The position numbers and the translations under genes were made by a program. 17,461 nt of DNA from [Borrelia] tanukii (lineage in GTDB: Bacteria > Spirochaetota > Spirochaetia > Borreliales > Borreliaceae), in NCBI RefSeq assembly GCF_030436345.1, contig NZ_CP124036.1, forward strand, positions 1 to 17,461. Reading direction: 5' to 3'. This document shows, one piece after another, positions 1,953-15,628 of the stretch (positions are counted from its first letter, which is position 1; each line of letters begins with the position of its first letter). Below the pieces are notes generated by a model. It searched no databases, was not told where the DNA came from, and was given only the letters and a program-made list of their open reading frames with translations.

Positions 1953-2903
1953 ATGAAATATAATATAATTGCAAGCATCTTAGTTTTTCTACTTTTAAAT
2001 GCTTGCAATCCAGATTTTAACACCAATCAAAAAGATATAAAGCATCAATCTAGTAAAAAAGAACTAAGATCTAATAGAAAAAGACTAAAATCCAAAAAGG
2101 GATTAACACCTAAAACAGAAGTAACCCCAAATCAAGAAGTAACCCCAAATCAAGAAGTAACCCCAAATCAAGAAGTAACCCCAAATCAAGAAGTAACCCC
2201 AAATCAAGAAGTAACCCCAAATCAAGAAGTAACCCCAAATCAAGAAGTAACCCCAAATCAAGAAGTAACCCTAACTCAAGAAAAAGATCCTAATCATAGC
2301 GCAAAAAACACACTGCTTGATGATTTAAGAAATTTAATAGAAACAGCTAACAAAGATAGAAAAAAATATGTAAAAAAAATAGAAGAAGAACCTTCGGACC
2401 AATATGGAATAGAAGCTTTCAAAGAATTATTTTGGCAAGGCTCATCTGAAACGGTAGCAACTAATACTGAAAGATCCAAAAACTATAGAAAATCGACTTA
2501 TTGCACCTTAAATGATATTGATATTAGTGAATTAAAGAAATTATCAGAAATTATAATGCTATCAAATCAAACACAAGGACTATTCAATACCCTTAGAGGA
2601 TTTGGGGGCATTCTCGACGAAGTAATTGTTCGCTTATATCCCAAAAAAGATGCTCTAGACAAACTAGAAATTTCAGATTTAGAAAATCTTAAAAATTCGT
2701 TTGAAAAATTATTATCTATAAAAGCAAGCATCTCAGAAATGTTAAACCAACTTTTATTAGATTATCAAAATGATAAAAATTCTATAAAAAAAGATAGCAC
2801 TGAACTTGAATTTCATATATATACAATTTTCAAACAAATGCTAGAAAAATGCGAAGAAGCAGAAAAGCTAAAAAATGATATATTCTCAATACATAACCTT
2901 TAA
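1953..2903 (+). CDS. P37/BBK50-like surface lipoprotein with hexapeptide repeats
   Basis: This 316-residue protein has a lipoprotein signal peptide ending in LLNAC, so Cys18 would be acylated. Residues 19-55 are Lys/Ser-rich. Residues 56-103 are eight perfect copies of EVTPNQ, followed by one diverged copy. Residues from about 120 form a helical, charged domain (KKLSEIIMLSNQTQGLFNTL, then EISDLENLKNSFEKLLSIKA). I recall this as the lp36-type P37 paralogous family (BBK45/46/48/50), immunogenic lipoproteins of Lyme Borrelia. The repeat tract would act as a stalk between lipid anchor and folded domain. AGGAG at 1941-1945 supports the start. A near-identical second copy follows at 3353. The exact host ligand is unknown to me. 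Coding is intact throughout. Confidence 0.82.
   Translation: MKYNIIASILVFLLLNACNPDFNTNQKDIKHQSSKKELRSNRKRLKSKKGLTPKTEVTPNQEVTPNQEVTPNQEVTPNQEVTPNQEVTPNQEVTPNQEVTPNQEVTLTQEKDPNHSAKNTLLDDLRNLIETANKDRKKYVKKIEEEPSDQYGIEAFKELFWQGSSETVATNTERSKNYRKSTYCTLNDIDISELKKLSEIIMLSNQTQGLFNTLRGFGGILDEVIVRLYPKKDALDKLEISDLENLKNSFEKLLSIKASISEMLNQLLLDYQNDKNSIKKDSTELEFHIYTIFKQMLEKCEEAEKLKNDIFSIHNL
2118..2279 (+). repeat. 18-bp in-frame tandem repeat (EVTPNQ units)
   Basis: Eight exact copies of an 18-bp unit (2118-2261) and a ninth with two changed residues (EVTLTQ, 2262-2279) lie in frame. The perfect identity points to recent slippage or recombination. The paralogue at 3353 has only about four degenerate units with the same 6-residue period (such as EAKPNQ and EVDQNQ), so copy number probably varies among strains. 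Confidence 0.95.
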
Positions 2904-2917
2904 GTTATGTATTGAGA
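2884..2917 (+). terminator. gene-end hairpin with the stop codon in the loop
   Basis: Perfect 14-bp arms (2884-2897 and 2904-2917; arm TCTCAATACATAAC) enclose a 6-nt loop CTTTAA that contains the TAA stop of the lipoprotein gene. The last codons thus form half of the stem. No clear T-run follows, so it may act as a terminator or as a 3' end stabiliser. The second copy at 4195 keeps the stem with a paired change. Confidence 0.65.
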
Positions 2918-3244
2918 TTGTCATAATGCAAAAACTATCTTCAATAAAAGACAGGCTTGACGTTTTAACTAAAAATTACAAAGAATTTTTTATGCCTATA
3001 ATTTACATAAACTTTAGGTAGAAATAAACCTGTTAAATAATATAAACATGCTTCTATGATACCTTTAGAAACCCATACATTGGAAATAACACAATCGTTT
3101 TTGTAATAAAATAAAATTTGCAATAATAATATTATTTAAATAAACAAATTGGATAAAAATCCATCAAAATAGATTTTATAAAAAACTAAAATCACTATAA
3201 AACTTCTCTTAATTAAAATATTATTATGATTATTCCAATAATAC

Positions 3245-3294
3245 ATATTTATTATATTTCAATATGATAATAAATATTGAAATATAATAAATAT
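3245..3294. promoter_or_regulatory. perfect 21-bp inverted repeat upstream of lipoprotein gene 2
   Basis: Arms 3245-3265 and 3274-3294 are exact reverse complements with an 8-nt loop. The element ends 58 bp before the ATG at 3353, nearly the same place as the 43-bp palindrome of copy one. The arm sequence differs, beginning ATATTTATTATATTTC, so the symmetry is kept while the sequence has moved. Downstream ATATTGAATATTAG and the ribosome site are the same in both copies. Confidence 0.65.
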
Positions 3295-3352
3295 TGAATT
3301 ATATTAATATTGAATTATATTGAATATTAGATTTTAATTAAGGAGAATATTT

Positions 3353-4213
3353 ATGAAATATAATATAATTGCAAGCATCTTAGTTTTTCTATTTTTAAAT
3401 GCTTGCAATCCAGATTTTAACACCAATCAAAAAGATATAAAGCATCAATCTAGTAAAAAAGGACTAAGATCCAATAGAAAAAGACTAAAATCCAAAAAGG
3501 GATTAACACCTACAACAGAAGCAAAGCCAAATCAAGAAGTAGATCAAAATCAAGAAGCAAAATCAAATCAAGAAATAGGCCAAAATCAAAAAGAAGATCC
3601 TAATAAAAAAATAAAAAATACACTACTTGAAGATTTAAAAAATTTAATAGAAAAAGCTAACGAGGACAGAAAAAAATATGTAAAAAAAATAGAAGAAGAA
3701 CCTTCGGACCAATATAAAATAGCGGCTTTCAAAGAATTGTTTTGGCAAGGCTCATCTGAAACGGCAGCAGCTAATACTGAAAGATCCAAAAACTATAGAA
3801 AATTAACTTATTGCGCCTTAAATGATATTGATATTAGTAAATTAAAGAAATTATCAGAAATTATAATGCTATCAAATCAAACACAAGGACTATTCAACAC
3901 CCTTAGAGGATTTGGGAGCATTCTCGACGAAGTGATTGTTAGCTTATATCCCAAAAAAGATACTTTAGACAAACTAGAAATTTCAGATTTAGAAAATCTT
4001 AAAAATTCGTTTGAAAAATTATTATCTATCAAAGCAAGCATCTCAGAAATGTTAAACCAACTTTTATTATATTATCAAAATAATGAAAATATTATAAAAA
4101 AAGATAACACTAAGCTTGAATTTCATGCAAACACACTTTTCAAACAACTGCTAGAAAAACGCGAAGAAGCAGAAAAGCTAAAAAATGACATATCTTCAAT
4201 ACATAACCTTTAA
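3353..4213 (+). CDS. P37/BBK50-like surface lipoprotein, paralogue of 1953-2903
   Basis: This 286-residue protein shares the signal peptide and lipobox (LFLNAC, Cys18) and most of the C-terminal helical domain with its neighbour. The main difference is the spacer: about four degenerate hexapeptides (EAKPNQ, EVDQNQ, EAKSNQ, EIGQNQ) replace the long perfect array. The helical domain keeps KKLSEIIMLSNQTQGLFNTL and ISDLENLKNSFEKLLSIKA, with scattered substitutions near the C-terminus. AAGGAG upstream supports the start. It is likely exported to the outer surface and exposed to the host. Whether both copies are expressed together or under different palindromic operators cannot be told here. Confidence 0.82.
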   Translation: MKYNIIASILVFLFLNACNPDFNTNQKDIKHQSSKKGLRSNRKRLKSKKGLTPTTEAKPNQEVDQNQEAKSNQEIGQNQKEDPNKKIKNTLLEDLKNLIEKANEDRKKYVKKIEEEPSDQYKIAAFKELFWQGSSETAAANTERSKNYRKLTYCALNDIDISKLKKLSEIIMLSNQTQGLFNTLRGFGSILDEVIVSLYPKKDTLDKLEISDLENLKNSFEKLLSIKASISEMLNQLLLYYQNNENIIKKDNTKLEFHANTLFKQLLEKREEAEKLKNDISSIHNL

Positions 4214-8363: not shown

Positions 8364-9452
8364 TTAATTGATTTTAATTTTGTTTATTTTTTTAAAGCCC
8401 TTGTTATTGGAAAAAGACACATTTATTCTTTTCTCATGATTAGGAATATTTTTTTCGCTTTTTATATAATTATTGTAATAATTTTCTATTAGCTTTTTGT
8501 TTGAAAATCTTTTTTTAAATCTTGTTTCCCAAATTTCATTAAAATCATTTATTTTATCTGTTTTTCCGTTCATCATCCATATTTTTTTGCTGTATTTGTT
8601 TTTAAACTCTTTTACGAAGTGATTTGAAATATCTTCAATTCTATATTCTTTTTCGTATTTTTCTATTGCTGATTTTAAGTTTCTTAATGCGTTTATATAA
8701 GTTTTCTCATTATTGCTTATTTTTAGTATTTTTGTTATTTGAAGTTTTTCTATTTTATGGACTCTTATTAGTTTGCTCGTGATATATTCTTTGTAAGAAA
8801 ATTTTTCAATTTTTTTTCTTATAGAATTCTTTATCTTATCTTTATCTTTTATACCTTTAGGTATAACATCTGCAATTGATTCATCTGCAGATGAGCTTTT
8901 AGTTTTTGTATTATTCTTTATCATAGTATTTTCAATTTCTTTATAAAAATCAGATACTATTTTTTTATCTTTTACATATTCTAAAATTTCTTCATTAATT
9001 GCTTCTTGAATAACTTTAAAACGGTGCTCCCAAAGATTTTTATTTTGTATATAAAATGCAAAGCTTCCATTATCTTTCCCCAAATGCTTTAGTTGGGTTG
9101 TTATTAATAGTATTTGATTTAAAAATGATATATCATATTCTAAGGTCCTGATTGATATTTTTTGATTATCTTTTGCAAGGCATTTGTTAACTATATTGTA
9201 TATTTCCATTGTGGAATATGTTTTAAGTTTGTTAGATTTATAGTATTCTTTGTTTTTAAGTTCAATTGCCCAGCATACTTTTAGCATTCTTTGATATATG
9301 GCTCTTTTTTTAGTTAAATATGATTTTAGTCTTGAGCACTTTAGTTCTATTAAATTAGAGTTTGTGTTTTTTTGGTTGTGTTTTAGAAGCTCTTCTAATG
9401 TTATGAGATTGTTAAAATTTTTGTTGACATTATTTTCTATTTTTATTATCAT
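8364..9452 (-). CDS. PF57/62 plasmid replication initiator (BBD14-like)
   Basis: This 362-residue basic protein has the hallmarks of Borrelia paralogous family 57/62. Residues 60-75 read CWAIELKNKEYYKSNK. A winged-helix-like part at about 78-125 (YSTMEIYNIVNKCL, then ISIRTLEYDISFLNQIL) leads to LGKDNGSFAFYIQNKNLWEH at about 124-143. The C-terminal half is Lys-rich and helical. In lp17 the corresponding protein, BBD14, is the known replication initiator, found sufficient with adjacent DNA, and is reported to contact the PF32 protein. AGGAT about 7 nt before ATG supports the start. The 155 bp upstream hold two inverted repeats that may be the origin. Unusually for Borrelia plasmids, it lies over 5 kb from parA. 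Confidence 0.85.
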   Translation of the reverse strand: MIIKIENNVNKNFNNLITLEELLKHNQKNTNSNLIELKCSRLKSYLTKKRAIYQRMLKVCWAIELKNKEYYKSNKLKTYSTMEIYNIVNKCLAKDNQKISIRTLEYDISFLNQILLITTQLKHLGKDNGSFAFYIQNKNLWEHRFKVIQEAINEEILEYVKDKKIVSDFYKEIENTMIKNNTKTKSSSADESIADVIPKGIKDKDKIKNSIRKKIEKFSYKEYITSKLIRVHKIEKLQITKILKISNNEKTYINALRNLKSAIEKYEKEYRIEDISNHFVKEFKNKYSKKIWMMNGKTDKINDFNEIWETRFKKRFSNKKLIENYYNNYIKSEKNIPNHEKRINVSFSNNKGFKKINKIKIN

Positions 9453-9607: not shown

Positions 9608-9934
9608 TTATAAGATATGACCCATGTTGTTAGAAACAATTTGTATTTCATGTTTTGTAGATTTTCGGGTCATTATTTTTTTTGCTTGCTCAATTCTTAA
9701 TTGAATTGTTTCTTTCATGCTATTTGTTATAGGTTTGGGCCTTCTAAAGTCCATTAGAAAGTATGTACAAAAATCTTCTAAAAGGTAAGGACGGTTGTCT
9801 ACATGGATTGCACATTTTAAAATTTTTGATTTTTTAGATATAGTATTTTTGCTAATTGAAAGATTATAAGAATCTTCTAATATATTTTGGAATTCTTTTA
9901 AAGAATAAAGTCTTACACCGTTAATACTTAACAT
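9608..9934 (-). CDS. small HTH-like protein
   Basis: This 108-residue protein begins MLSINGVRLYSLKEFQNILE, and residues 10-42 (YSLKEFQ...LSISKNTISKKSKIL) look like a helix-turn-helix of the excisionase or MerR-like kind. The C-terminal part is helical and basic (IQLRIEQAKKIMTRKSTKHE). The gene at 16750 has a similar opening (YFTLKEVQ...SIKKNTIYIKLLRLEKQGKI), so the two may be distant relatives. GAGG upstream of ATG supports the start. It is encoded 155 bp upstream of, and in the same direction as, the replication initiator. It may control replication or the neighbouring genes. No family name is assigned. Confidence 0.65.
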   Translation of the reverse strand: MLSINGVRLYSLKEFQNILEDSYNLSISKNTISKKSKILKCAIHVDNRPYLLEDFCTYFLMDFRRPKPITNSMKETIQLRIEQAKKIMTRKSTKHEIQIVSNNMGHIL

Positions 9935-9995: not shown

Positions 9996-10111
9996 ATGTT
10001 GAATAAAACTTTTGATAGAGCGCTTGCTAAGAGTTGTTAGATTATGTGAATGAAGCTTATTATGGCAATTTGTCTGACCTAAAAAAATTTACAATAAGTT
10101 TATATTTTTAA
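9996..10111 (+). pseudogene. short decayed rightward gene fragment
   Basis: AAGGAG (9981-9986) precedes an ATG at 9996 that opens MLNKTFDRALAKSC and stops. A shifted frame continues LDYVNEAYYGNLSDLKKFTI to a TAA at 10109-10111. The join reads as one protein N-terminus with a frameshift. The tail overlaps the 3' end of the leftward gene at 10089. The family is not recognised. Confidence 0.45.
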
Positions 10112-11093
10112 GAAATGGGCTTATACTTGTGGTTTGGTTTAAGTATTTTTTTTCAATTTTGTCCTCTAATAAAGTGATATCAATTCTGATGCAGCTATTT
10201 TCTTGTATAATATTGATGTCATTTAAGATAAAGTCTAAGTTATTTGAGTGTAAATTTTTAGTCAAAAAATTTGTTTTTTCTAAGAAGAGTAATCTTATTT
10301 TGCCCCCTAATCCGTTTTCATTTTCAATAAAAGATCTTAACGTTTTTAGAATTTTTTGTTTGTTGTTGATAGTTTTTATTTGATTTGAATTTGTTAAGAT
10401 TAGTTCTTCGTAGATTTTTGTGCTCAGATTTAACAACATTTTATTTGTTGTTTTAATGTTTACATTTAAATTTTCATTAGTTTTTATATCGGCGTTATTG
10501 ATAATTTTTATATTTGAATAGCTGATTTTTGTTAAAAAAGGAAGTTCAATGATCTGGTTGATCCCTTTTAAGAGTAAATTAACTTTTTGGTTGTTTGCTT
10601 TATTCTCAAAAAGGTAAGTATTATTATTCTTTATAATAGGAATAAACGCATTTTCTATATTTTCTTTTCTATAAATAGAGCCAAGTATTTTAAGTCCGAT
10701 TTGATAAATTTCATCTTTATTGCTAGCTTTTAAATCAATTGTATAAACTTTTACTACCATCATATCGTTAACTATTTTAAGTTTTTCTTCACTTACATAG
10801 TTAATATAAAATTCAAGTTTTCCCTTTAGAATATCTGTTGGTAATTTAGAAAATTCATTTGACCTTAATTTTAAGCTAATAATTCCACCTTTAAATGTTT
10901 TTAGTAATACAGTTTCTTTTGAATTTGTTTTAATAGTTTTTTCAAAATTAAGTTCAAATTTAAAAGCTATGGGGTTGATAATGAATATTTTTTTATTTTT
11001 TACAAAGTAAGTATTAATAATTGACCTTGGGTCAGTATACACGATTTCTCCTATAGATGCACTTTGAAATTTATATAAATTGGGATTAGACAT
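10089..11093 (-). CDS. conserved cytoplasmic protein, possibly PilZ-like fold
   Basis: This 334-residue protein has no signal peptide or membrane segment and is rich in Ile, Lys and Asn. The middle (KIVNDMMVVKVYTIDLKASN, then IYQIGLKILGSIYRKENIEN) and later FLTKISYSNIKIINNADIKT resemble beta-strand patterns of PilZ-type domains, but the c-di-GMP motifs RxxxR and (D/N)xSxxG are not intact, so this is only a fold guess. The C-terminus (GLGGKIRLLFLEKTNFLTKN onwards) is not recognised. The start codon lies in a small inverted repeat (11084-11102), and no strong ribosome site precedes it. It is divergent from the lipoprotein gene at 11269. I expect it to be a real, conserved lp17-type gene of unknown role. 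Confidence 0.7.
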   Translation of the reverse strand: MSNPNLYKFQSASIGEIVYTDPRSIINTYFVKNKKIFIINPIAFKFELNFEKTIKTNSKETVLLKTFKGGIISLKLRSNEFSKLPTDILKGKLEFYINYVSEEKLKIVNDMMVVKVYTIDLKASNKDEIYQIGLKILGSIYRKENIENAFIPIIKNNNTYLFENKANNQKVNLLLKGINQIIELPFLTKISYSNIKIINNADIKTNENLNVNIKTTNKMLLNLSTKIYEELILTNSNQIKTINNKQKILKTLRSFIENENGLGGKIRLLFLEKTNFLTKNLHSNNLDFILNDINIIQENSCIRIDITLLEDKIEKKYLNQTTSISPFLKNINLL

Positions 11094-14020: not shown

Positions 14021-14050
14021 TATATACTACAATATAGTATTGTATATCAA
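14021..14050 (-). promoter_or_regulatory. probable promoter/operator of the BBD18-like gene
   Basis: On the minus strand TTGATA (complement of 14045-14050) and TATATA (complement of 14021-14026) are 18 nt apart. The spacer holds CAATACTATATTG (complement of 14030-14042), a 5-bp inverted repeat. More CAATAT motifs lie upstream at 14058-14080 and echo the palindromes before the P37-like genes. Confidence 0.4.
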
Positions 14051-14159
14051 TTAATATTCAATATCAATTTATATGCAATATAAATAAAAAAATATTTTTA
14101 ATTTTGTTTTTTTTCTAAATTGTTGTAAATTTTAACTTATCTTTAACCTTTAACCATTT

Positions 14160-14219
14160 ATAAAAAGTCTTTAAGAGAGAAATTTCTTAGGACTTTTTAT
14201 TTATTTAATTTCTCTTTAA
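14160..14219. promoter_or_regulatory. alternative hairpins between bbd18-like gene and parA
   Basis: ATAAAAAGTC (14160-14169) pairs with GACTTTTTAT (14191-14200), extended by TAAG/CTTA inside. The inner segment TTAAGAGAGAAATT (14171-14184) could instead pair with AATTTCTCTTTAA (14207-14219). The first stem is followed by a T-rich stretch on the + strand. The two foldings exclude each other, which resembles an attenuator or a set of protein sites upstream of parA. Confidence 0.4.
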
Positions 14220-14308
14220 GAGGTTATTAATAAATTTTGCTATTAAAATAATCGAAGCTTTTATTTTTAATAGTTTTCTAAACCATGTCCGATTTCTGAT
14301 TCATTGAG

Positions 14309-14602
14309 ATAATTAATATATGATATAAAATAATTAATATATGATATAAAATAATTAATATATGATATAAAATAATTAATATATGATATAAAATAATTAA
14401 TATATGATATAAAATAATTAATATATGATATAAAATAATTAATATATGATATAAAATAATTAATATATGATATAAAATAATTAATATATGATATAAAATA
14501 ATTAATATATGATATAAAATAATTAATATATGATATAAAATAATTAATATATGATATAAAATAATTAATATATGATATAAAATAATTAATATATGATATA
14601 AA
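14309..14602. repeat. 14 perfect 21-bp direct repeats (candidate centromere/operator)
   Basis: Fourteen exact head-to-tail copies of a 21-bp unit (first half ATAATTAATAT, second half ATGATATAAA) fill 294 bp and end 22 bp before the parA ATG. A five-base partial copy follows. Each unit includes TATAAA, so the last copies probably also contain the parA promoter. Direct repeats beside a ParA gene are the usual form of a partition site and of an autoregulatory operator. The unit length of two helical turns would put bound proteins on one face. The leftward 138-codon frame across it is only the repeat read as a heptapeptide. Confidence 0.9.
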
Positions 14603-14624
14603 ATAATGTAAAGGAAGTTTGCAT

Positions 14625-15365
14625 ATGAAAAAAATAGCATTTCATATTCAAAAAGGTGGTGTTGGCAAAACCACCTTAAGTGGTAATATAGCAAGCTATT
14701 TGTCTAAACTAAAAAAAGTTGTATTAGTTGATTGTGATATACAGCAAGGAAGTTCTTCTACATGGTTTCTTAATCATGAAGTTCTTAGGTTAGATATTAA
14801 AGATTGTCTTTTGAAGAAGGTAGATATAGATCAAGTATTAAAGCAAATACAAAAAAATTTTTATATTTTGCCATGTGTGCCGAGTGGAACTTTTAGAAGA
14901 GATGTGCAGCATGAATTGCAGGATTTTCCATATTTGATAGATGATTTTTGTTTAGAATTAGAAAAATTAGGATTTGAATTTGCTATTTTCGATTTATCTC
15001 CTAGTTTTGAACTTTGGGAACGAAGAATTATTCTTGCAATGTGTGAAGTTGTTACCCCATTGACCCCAGAATTTTTAAGTCTTGAAGGAATTAATATTTT
15101 TAAGGAAGAGTTTGATTCTTTGTTAAAATCTTATAGAAAAAAGGTTAAACATGAGAAGATTATTTGCAATATGCTTAATAAAAGTTTTAAGCGACATAAT
15201 ATACATTTAAGGCAATTTAAAACTTTTGGATATGATCTTTATGAGATTGGGCAAGATGCTAAAATAGCAGAATCTCAGTTATATAAAAAGTCGATTTTTG
15301 ATTATTATCCTGAGAGTAAGTCTATCTCGGGACTTTCAAGATTGGGAGATGCTTTATGCCTATAA
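14625..15365 (+). CDS. parA: PF32 ParA-type partition ATPase (BBD21-like)
   Basis: This 246-residue P-loop ATPase has the deviant Walker A motif KGGVGKTT at residues 10-17, VDCDIQQGSS at 35-44 (Walker A'), and a hydrophobic Walker B strand FAIFDLSPS at about 119-127. It lacks an N-terminal DNA-binding extension, as in small ParA/Soj types. In Borrelia, family 32 proteins serve plasmid maintenance and incompatibility. The lp17 member BBD21 is reported to be an ATPase that contacts the initiator BBD14. I chose the ATG at 14625 (AGGAAG 7 nt upstream) over the TTG at 14619. It follows the 21-bp repeat array and overlaps the next gene by 10 bp, so the two are probably co-translated. Confidence 0.92.
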   Translation: MKKIAFHIQKGGVGKTTLSGNIASYLSKLKKVVLVDCDIQQGSSSTWFLNHEVLRLDIKDCLLKKVDIDQVLKQIQKNFYILPCVPSGTFRRDVQHELQDFPYLIDDFCLELEKLGFEFAIFDLSPSFELWERRIILAMCEVVTPLTPEFLSLEGINIFKEEFDSLLKSYRKKVKHEKIICNMLNKSFKRHNIHLRQFKTFGYDLYEIGQDAKIAESQLYKKSIFDYYPESKSISGLSRLGDALCL

Positions 15366-15628
15366 GCAAAGAGGTTGATTTAGAAGAAATTATTAAACAA
15401 AATGTTAGCAAATCCAAGTTTGCTTTTCGTGCCGACAATGATGTTATTGGTAATAGTATCTCAAATGTTAAGCCTGGTAGATCCAAGATGACGATCAAAC
15501 AAATAAGTGTAGGATTGAAATATGAATATTGGGTTGAATTTTATTCTATTTTAGATAAAAAGGGATTAACAGCTTCTGGTTTTATAAGAACTTTGATTAT
15601 GGAATATATAGAAACTTCTAAGAAATAA
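15356..15628 (+). CDS. PF49 plasmid maintenance protein
   Basis: This 90-residue basic protein (MPISKEVDLEEIIKQNVSKS; later ISVGLKYEYWVEFYSILDKK and GLTASGFIRTLIMEYIETSK) fits the small family 49 partners that follow PF32 genes on Borrelia plasmids. The C-terminal half resembles a ribbon-helix-helix-like DNA-binding fold, so it could be the ParB-like adaptor for the 21-bp repeats. That role is inference. Its ATG lies inside the end of parA (10-bp overlap), which suggests translational coupling. A weak AATAATAA/TTATTATT stem (15624-15652) follows. No PF50 gene was found nearby, unlike the usual four-gene Borrelia module. Confidence 0.82.
   Translation: MPISKEVDLEEIIKQNVSKSKFAFRADNDVIGNSISNVKPGRSKMTIKQISVGLKYEYWVEFYSILDKKGLTASGFIRTLIMEYIETSKK

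Follow-up and report, generated by a model that had tools for sequence, protein, structure and literature searches.

The DNA analyzed here is a 17,461-nucleotide stretch of [Borrelia] tanukii (contig NZ_CP124036.1; hereafter the window), an lp17-type linear plasmid with 99.3% identity to its best plasmid match, and the element in question is an array of 21-bp tandem repeats in front of the plasmid's parA gene. A pattern search of the window that allowed up to 3 mismatches recovered 14 full units of TAATTAATATATGATATAAAA, all of them exact, and no further unit outside the array, the region of the replication gene included. This number of matches was never reached in shuffled versions of the window (0 of 200; shuffle mean, 0.13; maximum, 1). 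Tandem Repeats Finder (TRF) delimited the tract at positions 14309 to 14607, with a period of 21, 14.2 copies, 100% match, and zero indels. The fourteen perfect repeats upstream of parA that had been reported in a preliminary description of this DNA are thus borne out, and the array end given there, position 14602, does lie 22 bp before the parA start codon; the last full unit counted here ends 21 bp 5′ of that ATG. The -10-like TATAAA hexamer named in the same description is present in every unit, and the TGA before it makes TGATATAAA resemble, by eye, an extended -10 element.

Features of the proposed lp17 partition region and of the replication gene in the window
Feature	Positions	Strand	Remarks
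PF57/62 replication gene (Borrelia_orfA)	8364..9452	-	~4.9 kb from the array
Array of 14 perfect tandem 21-bp units of TAATTAATATATGATATAAAA	14310..14603	+	Proposed centromere and operator
Spacer between the array and the parA ATG	14604..14624	+	Start of an incomplete 15th unit and ribosome-binding site AAAGGAAG (by eye)
parA, lp17 type (BBD21 orthologue)	14625..15365	+	246 amino acids (aa); Walker ATPase, KGGVGKTT
BBD22 orthologue	15356..15628	+	90 aa; 10-bp overlap with parA; proposed ribbon-helix-helix centromere-binding protein (ParB role)

Two other readings of the tract itself were rejected. A minus-strand open reading frame (ORF; 14278 to 14694) runs through the array because 21 is divisible by 3 and the frame is free of stop codons, and it is no evidence of a gene. 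A heptad substructure within the unit is not significant (cyclic lag-7 value of 13/21, with 8.75% of shuffles as high). Upstream of the array, positions 14046 to 14200 hold a homologue of the ittA small-RNA region of B31 lp17 (92% over 158 bp; B31 coordinates from PMC7224557) that ends ~110 bp before the first unit; the corresponding gap in B31 is ~1.3 kb.

The product of the gene behind the array is a small Walker-type ParA without an N-terminal helix-turn-helix: its AAA_31 match covers residues 1 to 174, and no N-terminal DNA-binding domain was found in the protein. Its relatives among solved structures are Soj/ParA proteins and one PF-32 protein. In a B31-like genome (G004) with 24 ParA-like matches, the weakest of which is chromosomal and possibly no ParA, the lp17 protein is 23 to 32% identical to the plasmid-borne matches and about equally far from plasmid PF32 (best match, 2.4e-13) and chromosomal ParA (6.2e-13). 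Purifying selection acts on parA (mean nonsynonymous rate dN of 0.026 and synonymous rate dS of 0.29 against 17 other plasmids) and also on the C-terminal part of the 90-aa partner (dN of 0.023 versus dS of 0.19); 18 of the 21 labelled loci entered these estimates, with L028, L042, and L044 left out and L096 to L101 unused. Among the named annotated lp17 records, 26 of the 73 matched by a query that contained the array were opened in addition to the window, and an intact ParA coding sequence (CDS) followed by a small CDS was found in 23 of them. ParA is split in L042 (B. japonica Miyazaki2E) and unannotated in L044 (B. valaisiana Am501) and L098 (B. burgdorferi Fr93), where the small CDS is present nonetheless. 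The array is kept at these three loci too, and sequencing errors are possible there. Of 18 Borreliella genomes, 15 have the lp17-type parA together with the 90-aa gene; the 18 genomes examined of the sister genus have neither.

The comparison of repeat number across lp17 plasmids proposed in the preliminary description yielded a period-21 array of ~4 to 19 units at all 46 lp17 parA loci examined (a survey of 40 and a further set of 6), which are not all independent, as some plasmids are present twice and mirrored copies are included. Full units in the named records number from 5 (B. valaisiana Am501) to 19 (B. burgdorferi N40), with 8 each in B31 and JD1 and 6 in B. mayonii, the last figure being a recount, since irregular spacing had disturbed the 40-locus survey. 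Four units were counted at three loci, two of which are cut by a contig end (L011 and L022) and one of which is the mirrored copy of L017 (L024); runs of N lie beside or inside the array at L010, L017, and L023. Casjens et al. (2012) had already listed a 21-bp variable tandem repeat of lp17, with 8, 18, 8, and 13 copies in B31, N40, JD1, and 297 and with common differences in the N40 units, and the counts made here for B31, N40, and JD1 agree with theirs within one unit (PMC3303823). Since sequenced strains carry lp17 plasmids with anything from 5 to 19 units, the suggestion that repeat number sets plasmid stability is not supported. Five contigs (G001:C4, G005:C6, G011:C5, G014:C17, and G017:C4) each carry two inverted lp17 parA loci, which represent either hairpin-telomere read-through or true inverted dimers, and the arrays of the mirrored copies in G014 and G017 are slightly different.

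The edge of the array that faces parA is fixed, with the last full unit 14 to 24 bp before the ATG in 38 of the 40 surveyed loci and mostly at 19 bp; the exceptions are L010, which has a run of N, and the irregular B. mayonii locus L039, and the Fr93 locus of the 6-locus set is likewise irregular. On the far side, the adjoining DNA varies. In the window and in B. tanukii, B. valaisiana, and B. yangtzensis plasmids the array adjoins the region upstream of a bbd18-like gene, and in the remaining species compared that region sits further upstream with other DNA between, the B31 insert carrying a transposase remnant. Because the parA side is anchored and the far side has been replaced in many species, the array is to be counted with parA rather than with d20, its location according to Casjens et al.; the treatment of these repeats in that paper assigns them to b31_d20 and its orthologues and suggests no function for them (PMC3303823). 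Imperfect palindromes lie at the left array edge of L036, L037, and L038, and at L036 and L038 the parA operon has an IS200-type transposase and TnpB-like genes on its downstream side; insertions may be targeted to this edge of the array. A joint loss of array and parA was considered for three genomes that are without both (G007, G010, and G012) and set aside, as a broken or absent lp17 is possible in each. Unit searches there returned scattered single sites at 2 to 3 mismatches, in the number given by the reversed-pattern control; the lp17 contig of G012 (12,341 bp) stops just beyond the ittA-like region, the contig with the replication gene in G010 is 5.9 kb long, and G007 is without such a replication gene.

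Repeat units are on average 98.7% identical within a plasmid and 95.2% identical between the modal units of 21 loci, where the B. mayonii row is affected by its irregular spacing. Array types differ within B. burgdorferi, all units of B31 and Fr93 carrying ATGTGAT, those of JD1, B331, and B-17/2013 carrying ATATGAT, and those of N40 ending in G, and they differ again between the B. japonica strains Miyazaki2E and H014. These switches of whole arrays within species are concerted change, and they support the homogenization that had been suggested from the identity of the copies in the window. Across the 21 loci, the modal unit never varies at positions 1 to 8, 12 to 15, 17, and 19; minor units deviate at position 6 (one L007 unit) and position 13 (B. 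valaisiana VS116, L021, and L022), and the Miyazaki2E array opens with a degenerate unit. Across 10 plasmids of 9 species, the unit differs at 7 of 210 sites versus 56 of 518 matched A/T fourfold sites of parA (Fisher P of 0.0007) and is thus ~3 times less changed, in comparisons that are not independent and that use modal units, which understates single-unit variation. With the dS of parA as the neutral yardstick, 84.7 unit differences would be expected over 17 plasmids against 10 seen; this yardstick was discarded as too lenient for a unit that consists almost wholly of A/T.

Searched with up to 2 mismatches allowed, the genome of the window holds no copy of the unit outside the array. The B31-like genome has it in the array and at one chromosomal site with 2 mismatches, and the reversed-pattern control also gave one site. 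A survey of that genome for arrays with a period of at least 8 and at least 2.5 copies within 1.5 kb of a ParA-like match found no 21-bp array at any of the other 23 matches; several of these loci have repeats with periods of 26 to 87 bp, mostly far downstream. At one of them (L060), ~22 copies of a 63-bp repeat (positions 2215 to 3577) start ~135 bp after the ParA-like match; the period is 3 × 21, but the unit is unrelated by eye.

The small gene behind parA had been taken for PF49 in the preliminary description, which is wrong: the 90-aa protein has no match to the PF49 family (Pfam PF01672) at E values up to 1, against 1.1e-34 for the true PF49 gene on a 53.6-kb (lp54-sized) contig of the same genome. 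It has 23 relatives in 5.8 billion proteins (E ≤ 0.01), and all those with a named organism come from Borreliella/Borrelia; UniRef, as a single source, calls one orthologue (P0002) "Plasmid partition protein." The C-terminal half reads as a strand (TIKQISVGL), a helix, a G-L-T turn, and a helix and shows a weak resemblance to a ribbon-helix-helix (RHH) domain. Among 22 orthologues, weak family matches were obtained to NF010256 (CopB/RepA2; 18/22), RelB (15/22), DUF6290 (12/22), and RepB-RCR_reg (9/22), all of which we take to be RHH families, and NF010256 is presumably a family of copy-control repressors. In hhalign, the 90-aa profile aligns co-linearly with ParG over residues 14 to 86 with a score of 20.15, which was matched by 0 of 100 and then 1 of 200 column-shuffled controls, so that the alignment exceeds 299 of the 300. 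The AlphaFold model has helices at residues 56 to 69 and 73 to 88, with predicted local distance difference test (pLDDT) values of 64 to 72 over residues 61 to 90. A search of solved structures with the 90-aa profile returned one chance-level match (PrgJ; E of 0.16). Two genes were rejected as relatives of the protein (hhalign probability of 0.2% each): PF49 and the neighbor of the chromosomal parA, which we take to be ParZ.

We favor, with moderate confidence and from sequence comparison, the reading that parA forms one cassette with the array before it and the 90-aa gene behind it and that this cassette acts like a type Ib partition system, in which the 90-aa protein would be the missing ParB and the array would serve it as centromere and operator alike. 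Type Ib systems have repeats upstream and a small RHH repressor as the centromere-binding protein (PMC5016525). On lp17 the repeats stand just upstream of parA and a small gene stands directly behind it; the likeness is one of layout, not of function, and we do not present type Ib membership as established. The parFGH locus of TP228 (type Ib) likewise has repeats upstream of a small ParA and then a small gene for a centromere-binding protein, ParG, with which the lp17 protein aligns, although homology between the two proteins is only suggestive. The parS/delta/omega system of pSM19035 also combines contiguous repeats that overlap the ParA promoter with an RHH ParB, and at least 4 contiguous repeats are needed there (PMC9499535), but its repeats are 7-bp heptads, unlike the 21-bp units of lp17. 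The PF57/62-PF50-PF32-PF49 cluster of other Borrelia plasmids shares a ParA-family ATPase with lp17; in contrast, no PF49 follows the lp17 parA, so that the order of PF49 behind PF32 is not found on lp17, and the other ParA-like loci of the B31-like genome are without a 21-bp array.

Because 21 bp corresponds to two helical turns, dimers of the 90-aa protein would cooperatively occupy successive units on the same face of the DNA. The loaded array could then serve as the handle of the cargo and stimulate ATP hydrolysis by ParA, by which the plasmid would be positioned or counted. With the last unit lying almost against the Shine-Dalgarno sequence and an extended -10-like motif in every repeat, protein loaded on the array would also act as a repressor of the parA-bbd22 operon. 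A more far-reaching version, which we put forward only tentatively, holds that lp17 has a private ParA-RHH-array cassette apart from the PF32/49/50 clusters, that its centromere is in concerted evolution while the core TAATTAAT...TGAT and a putative DNA-reading strand (K48-Q49-.-S51) stay fixed, and that the 90-aa protein is the elusive ParB. The intervening residue I50 is V in B. bissettiae DN127.

Published work on B31 bears on this proposal from several sides. The genes bbd21 and bbd22 are co-transcribed, and a parB orthologue is described as still elusive (Wong et al.; PMC9039534); an ATPase activity of BBD21 is cited second-hand, and bbd20-22 transcripts go up on BBD18 depletion in cells with RpoS (PMC9839762). 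A number of observations weigh against a type Ib-like centromere and its proposed partner. Loss of bbd21-bbd22 alters copy number instead of causing plasmid loss, with lp17 up 6- to 8-fold after 25 passages and down in host-adapted cells (PMC9039534). Region-deleted lp17 plasmids and bbd21 transposon insertions were kept in culture (Beaurepaire and Chaconas 2005, Casselli 2012, and Lin 2012, cited in PMC9039534), and gene order suggests that the array was removed along with the published region deletions. Elsewhere, PF49 is considered the plasmids' probable ParB-like protein (PMC10406323). A sigma-70 scan finds fewer sites than shuffled sequences do (4 versus 13.8), and the promoter assignment was made by eye. 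For the 90-aa protein, the AlphaFold model has a mean pLDDT of 52.6 and no strand, its helices lying where an RHH fold needs them, and neither proves nor excludes that fold. The top Pfam match is the irrelevant Med1 (22/22 orthologues; best E of 2.1e-5; under the cut-off for the window protein), and other unrelated families match too (DsrD in 10/22, Flg_bb_rod, PrgJ, and others). The hhalign probability to ParG is only 4 to 10%, a separate ParG alignment scored 18.04 and fell below the best shuffled controls (18.12 and 20.63), and N-terminal residues 1 to 41 hold no invariant arginine, R25 being present in 19/22 orthologues.

Borrelia cells are polyploid, and their chromosome uses ParA/ParZ (PMC9712426, PMC10406323). 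Random sharing of several plasmid copies per chromosome may therefore mask a partition defect in culture, and the stable deletions would be compatible with a centromere but incompatible with an essential one. The candidate centromere and self-control site of the preliminary description accordingly stands in part: its genomic context (an array at 46/46 loci, a fixed distance to parA, specificity for lp17 in two genomes, and a conserved unit) lends support to such a role, whereas deletions that kept lp17 stable speak against a strict role in stability (PMC9039534).

The copy-number phenotype invites the alternative that the array is only an operator or promoter, which has no role as a centromere and is bound by some regulator, be it the 90-aa protein or a different one. 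NF010256 is the commonest weak NCBIfam match of the 90-aa protein, as a copy-control function would lead one to expect, and TGATATAAA recurs in each unit just upstream of the Shine-Dalgarno sequence. Under this alternative ParA and BBD22 would act on copy number, as Wong et al. proposed by comparison with RepB/RepC of Enterococcus faecalis, in agreement with the shift of copy number and not of stability on bbd21-bbd22 loss (PMC9039534). One or two operators would be enough for simple repression, however, and ~4 to 19 contiguous units on all examined loci exceed that need, which makes an operator-only array rather unlikely in our judgment. Direct repeats of 21 bp are iteron-sized, and incA of P1 is an example of an iteron-type copy-control locus. 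An array that binds the PF57/62 initiator, titrating or handcuffing it, would fit this repeat size and the raised copy number of the bbd21-bbd22 mutant (PMC9039534), but that mutant is an internal bbd21 deletion that should retain the array. Iterons would also be expected as the same repeat at the origin or replication gene, whereas no further unit turned up when 3 mismatches were allowed in the window or 2 in the whole genome, no tandem array lies around the replication gene, and the cumulative GC-skew minimum, at 8 to 9.5 kb, is away from the array. An iteron-type locus is thus improbable, and PF57/62, named in the preliminary description as a possible array binder, is unlikely in that role.

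A selectively neutral variable-number tandem repeat, maintained by slippage beside parA, would account for the highly variable unit number and for array types that differ within species, and Casjens et al. list the array among variable tandem repeats (PMC3303823). The exact period of 21, the same edge and a near-identical unit at all examined loci, and a constraint beyond that of matched silent sites speak against neutrality, which we regard as very doubtful. The type Ib-like cassette is the reading that we retain.

The array is probably not the replication origin, because the GC-skew minimum falls in the PF57/62 gene. Beside that gene, the two genes at positions 9608 to 9934 and 10089 to 11093 gave no Pfam match at E values up to 1, despite occupying a place in which relatives of PF49/PF50 could be expected. 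Elsewhere in the window, a nine-copy 18-bp repeat (EVTPNQ; 2117 to 2282) lies in a lipoprotein-like ORF (1953 to 2903) that has a paralogue at 3353 to 4213.

The repeat itself is already published (PMC3303823); the assignment of a partner and a role is the new part, relative to a literature search that many subscription papers fell outside. The analysis proposes the 90-aa protein as a concrete candidate partner for the 21-bp array. If true, this pairing would offer a possible explanation for the copy-number effect of bbd21-bbd22 loss, and it would suggest that lp17 is partitioned by a different cluster than its sister plasmids.
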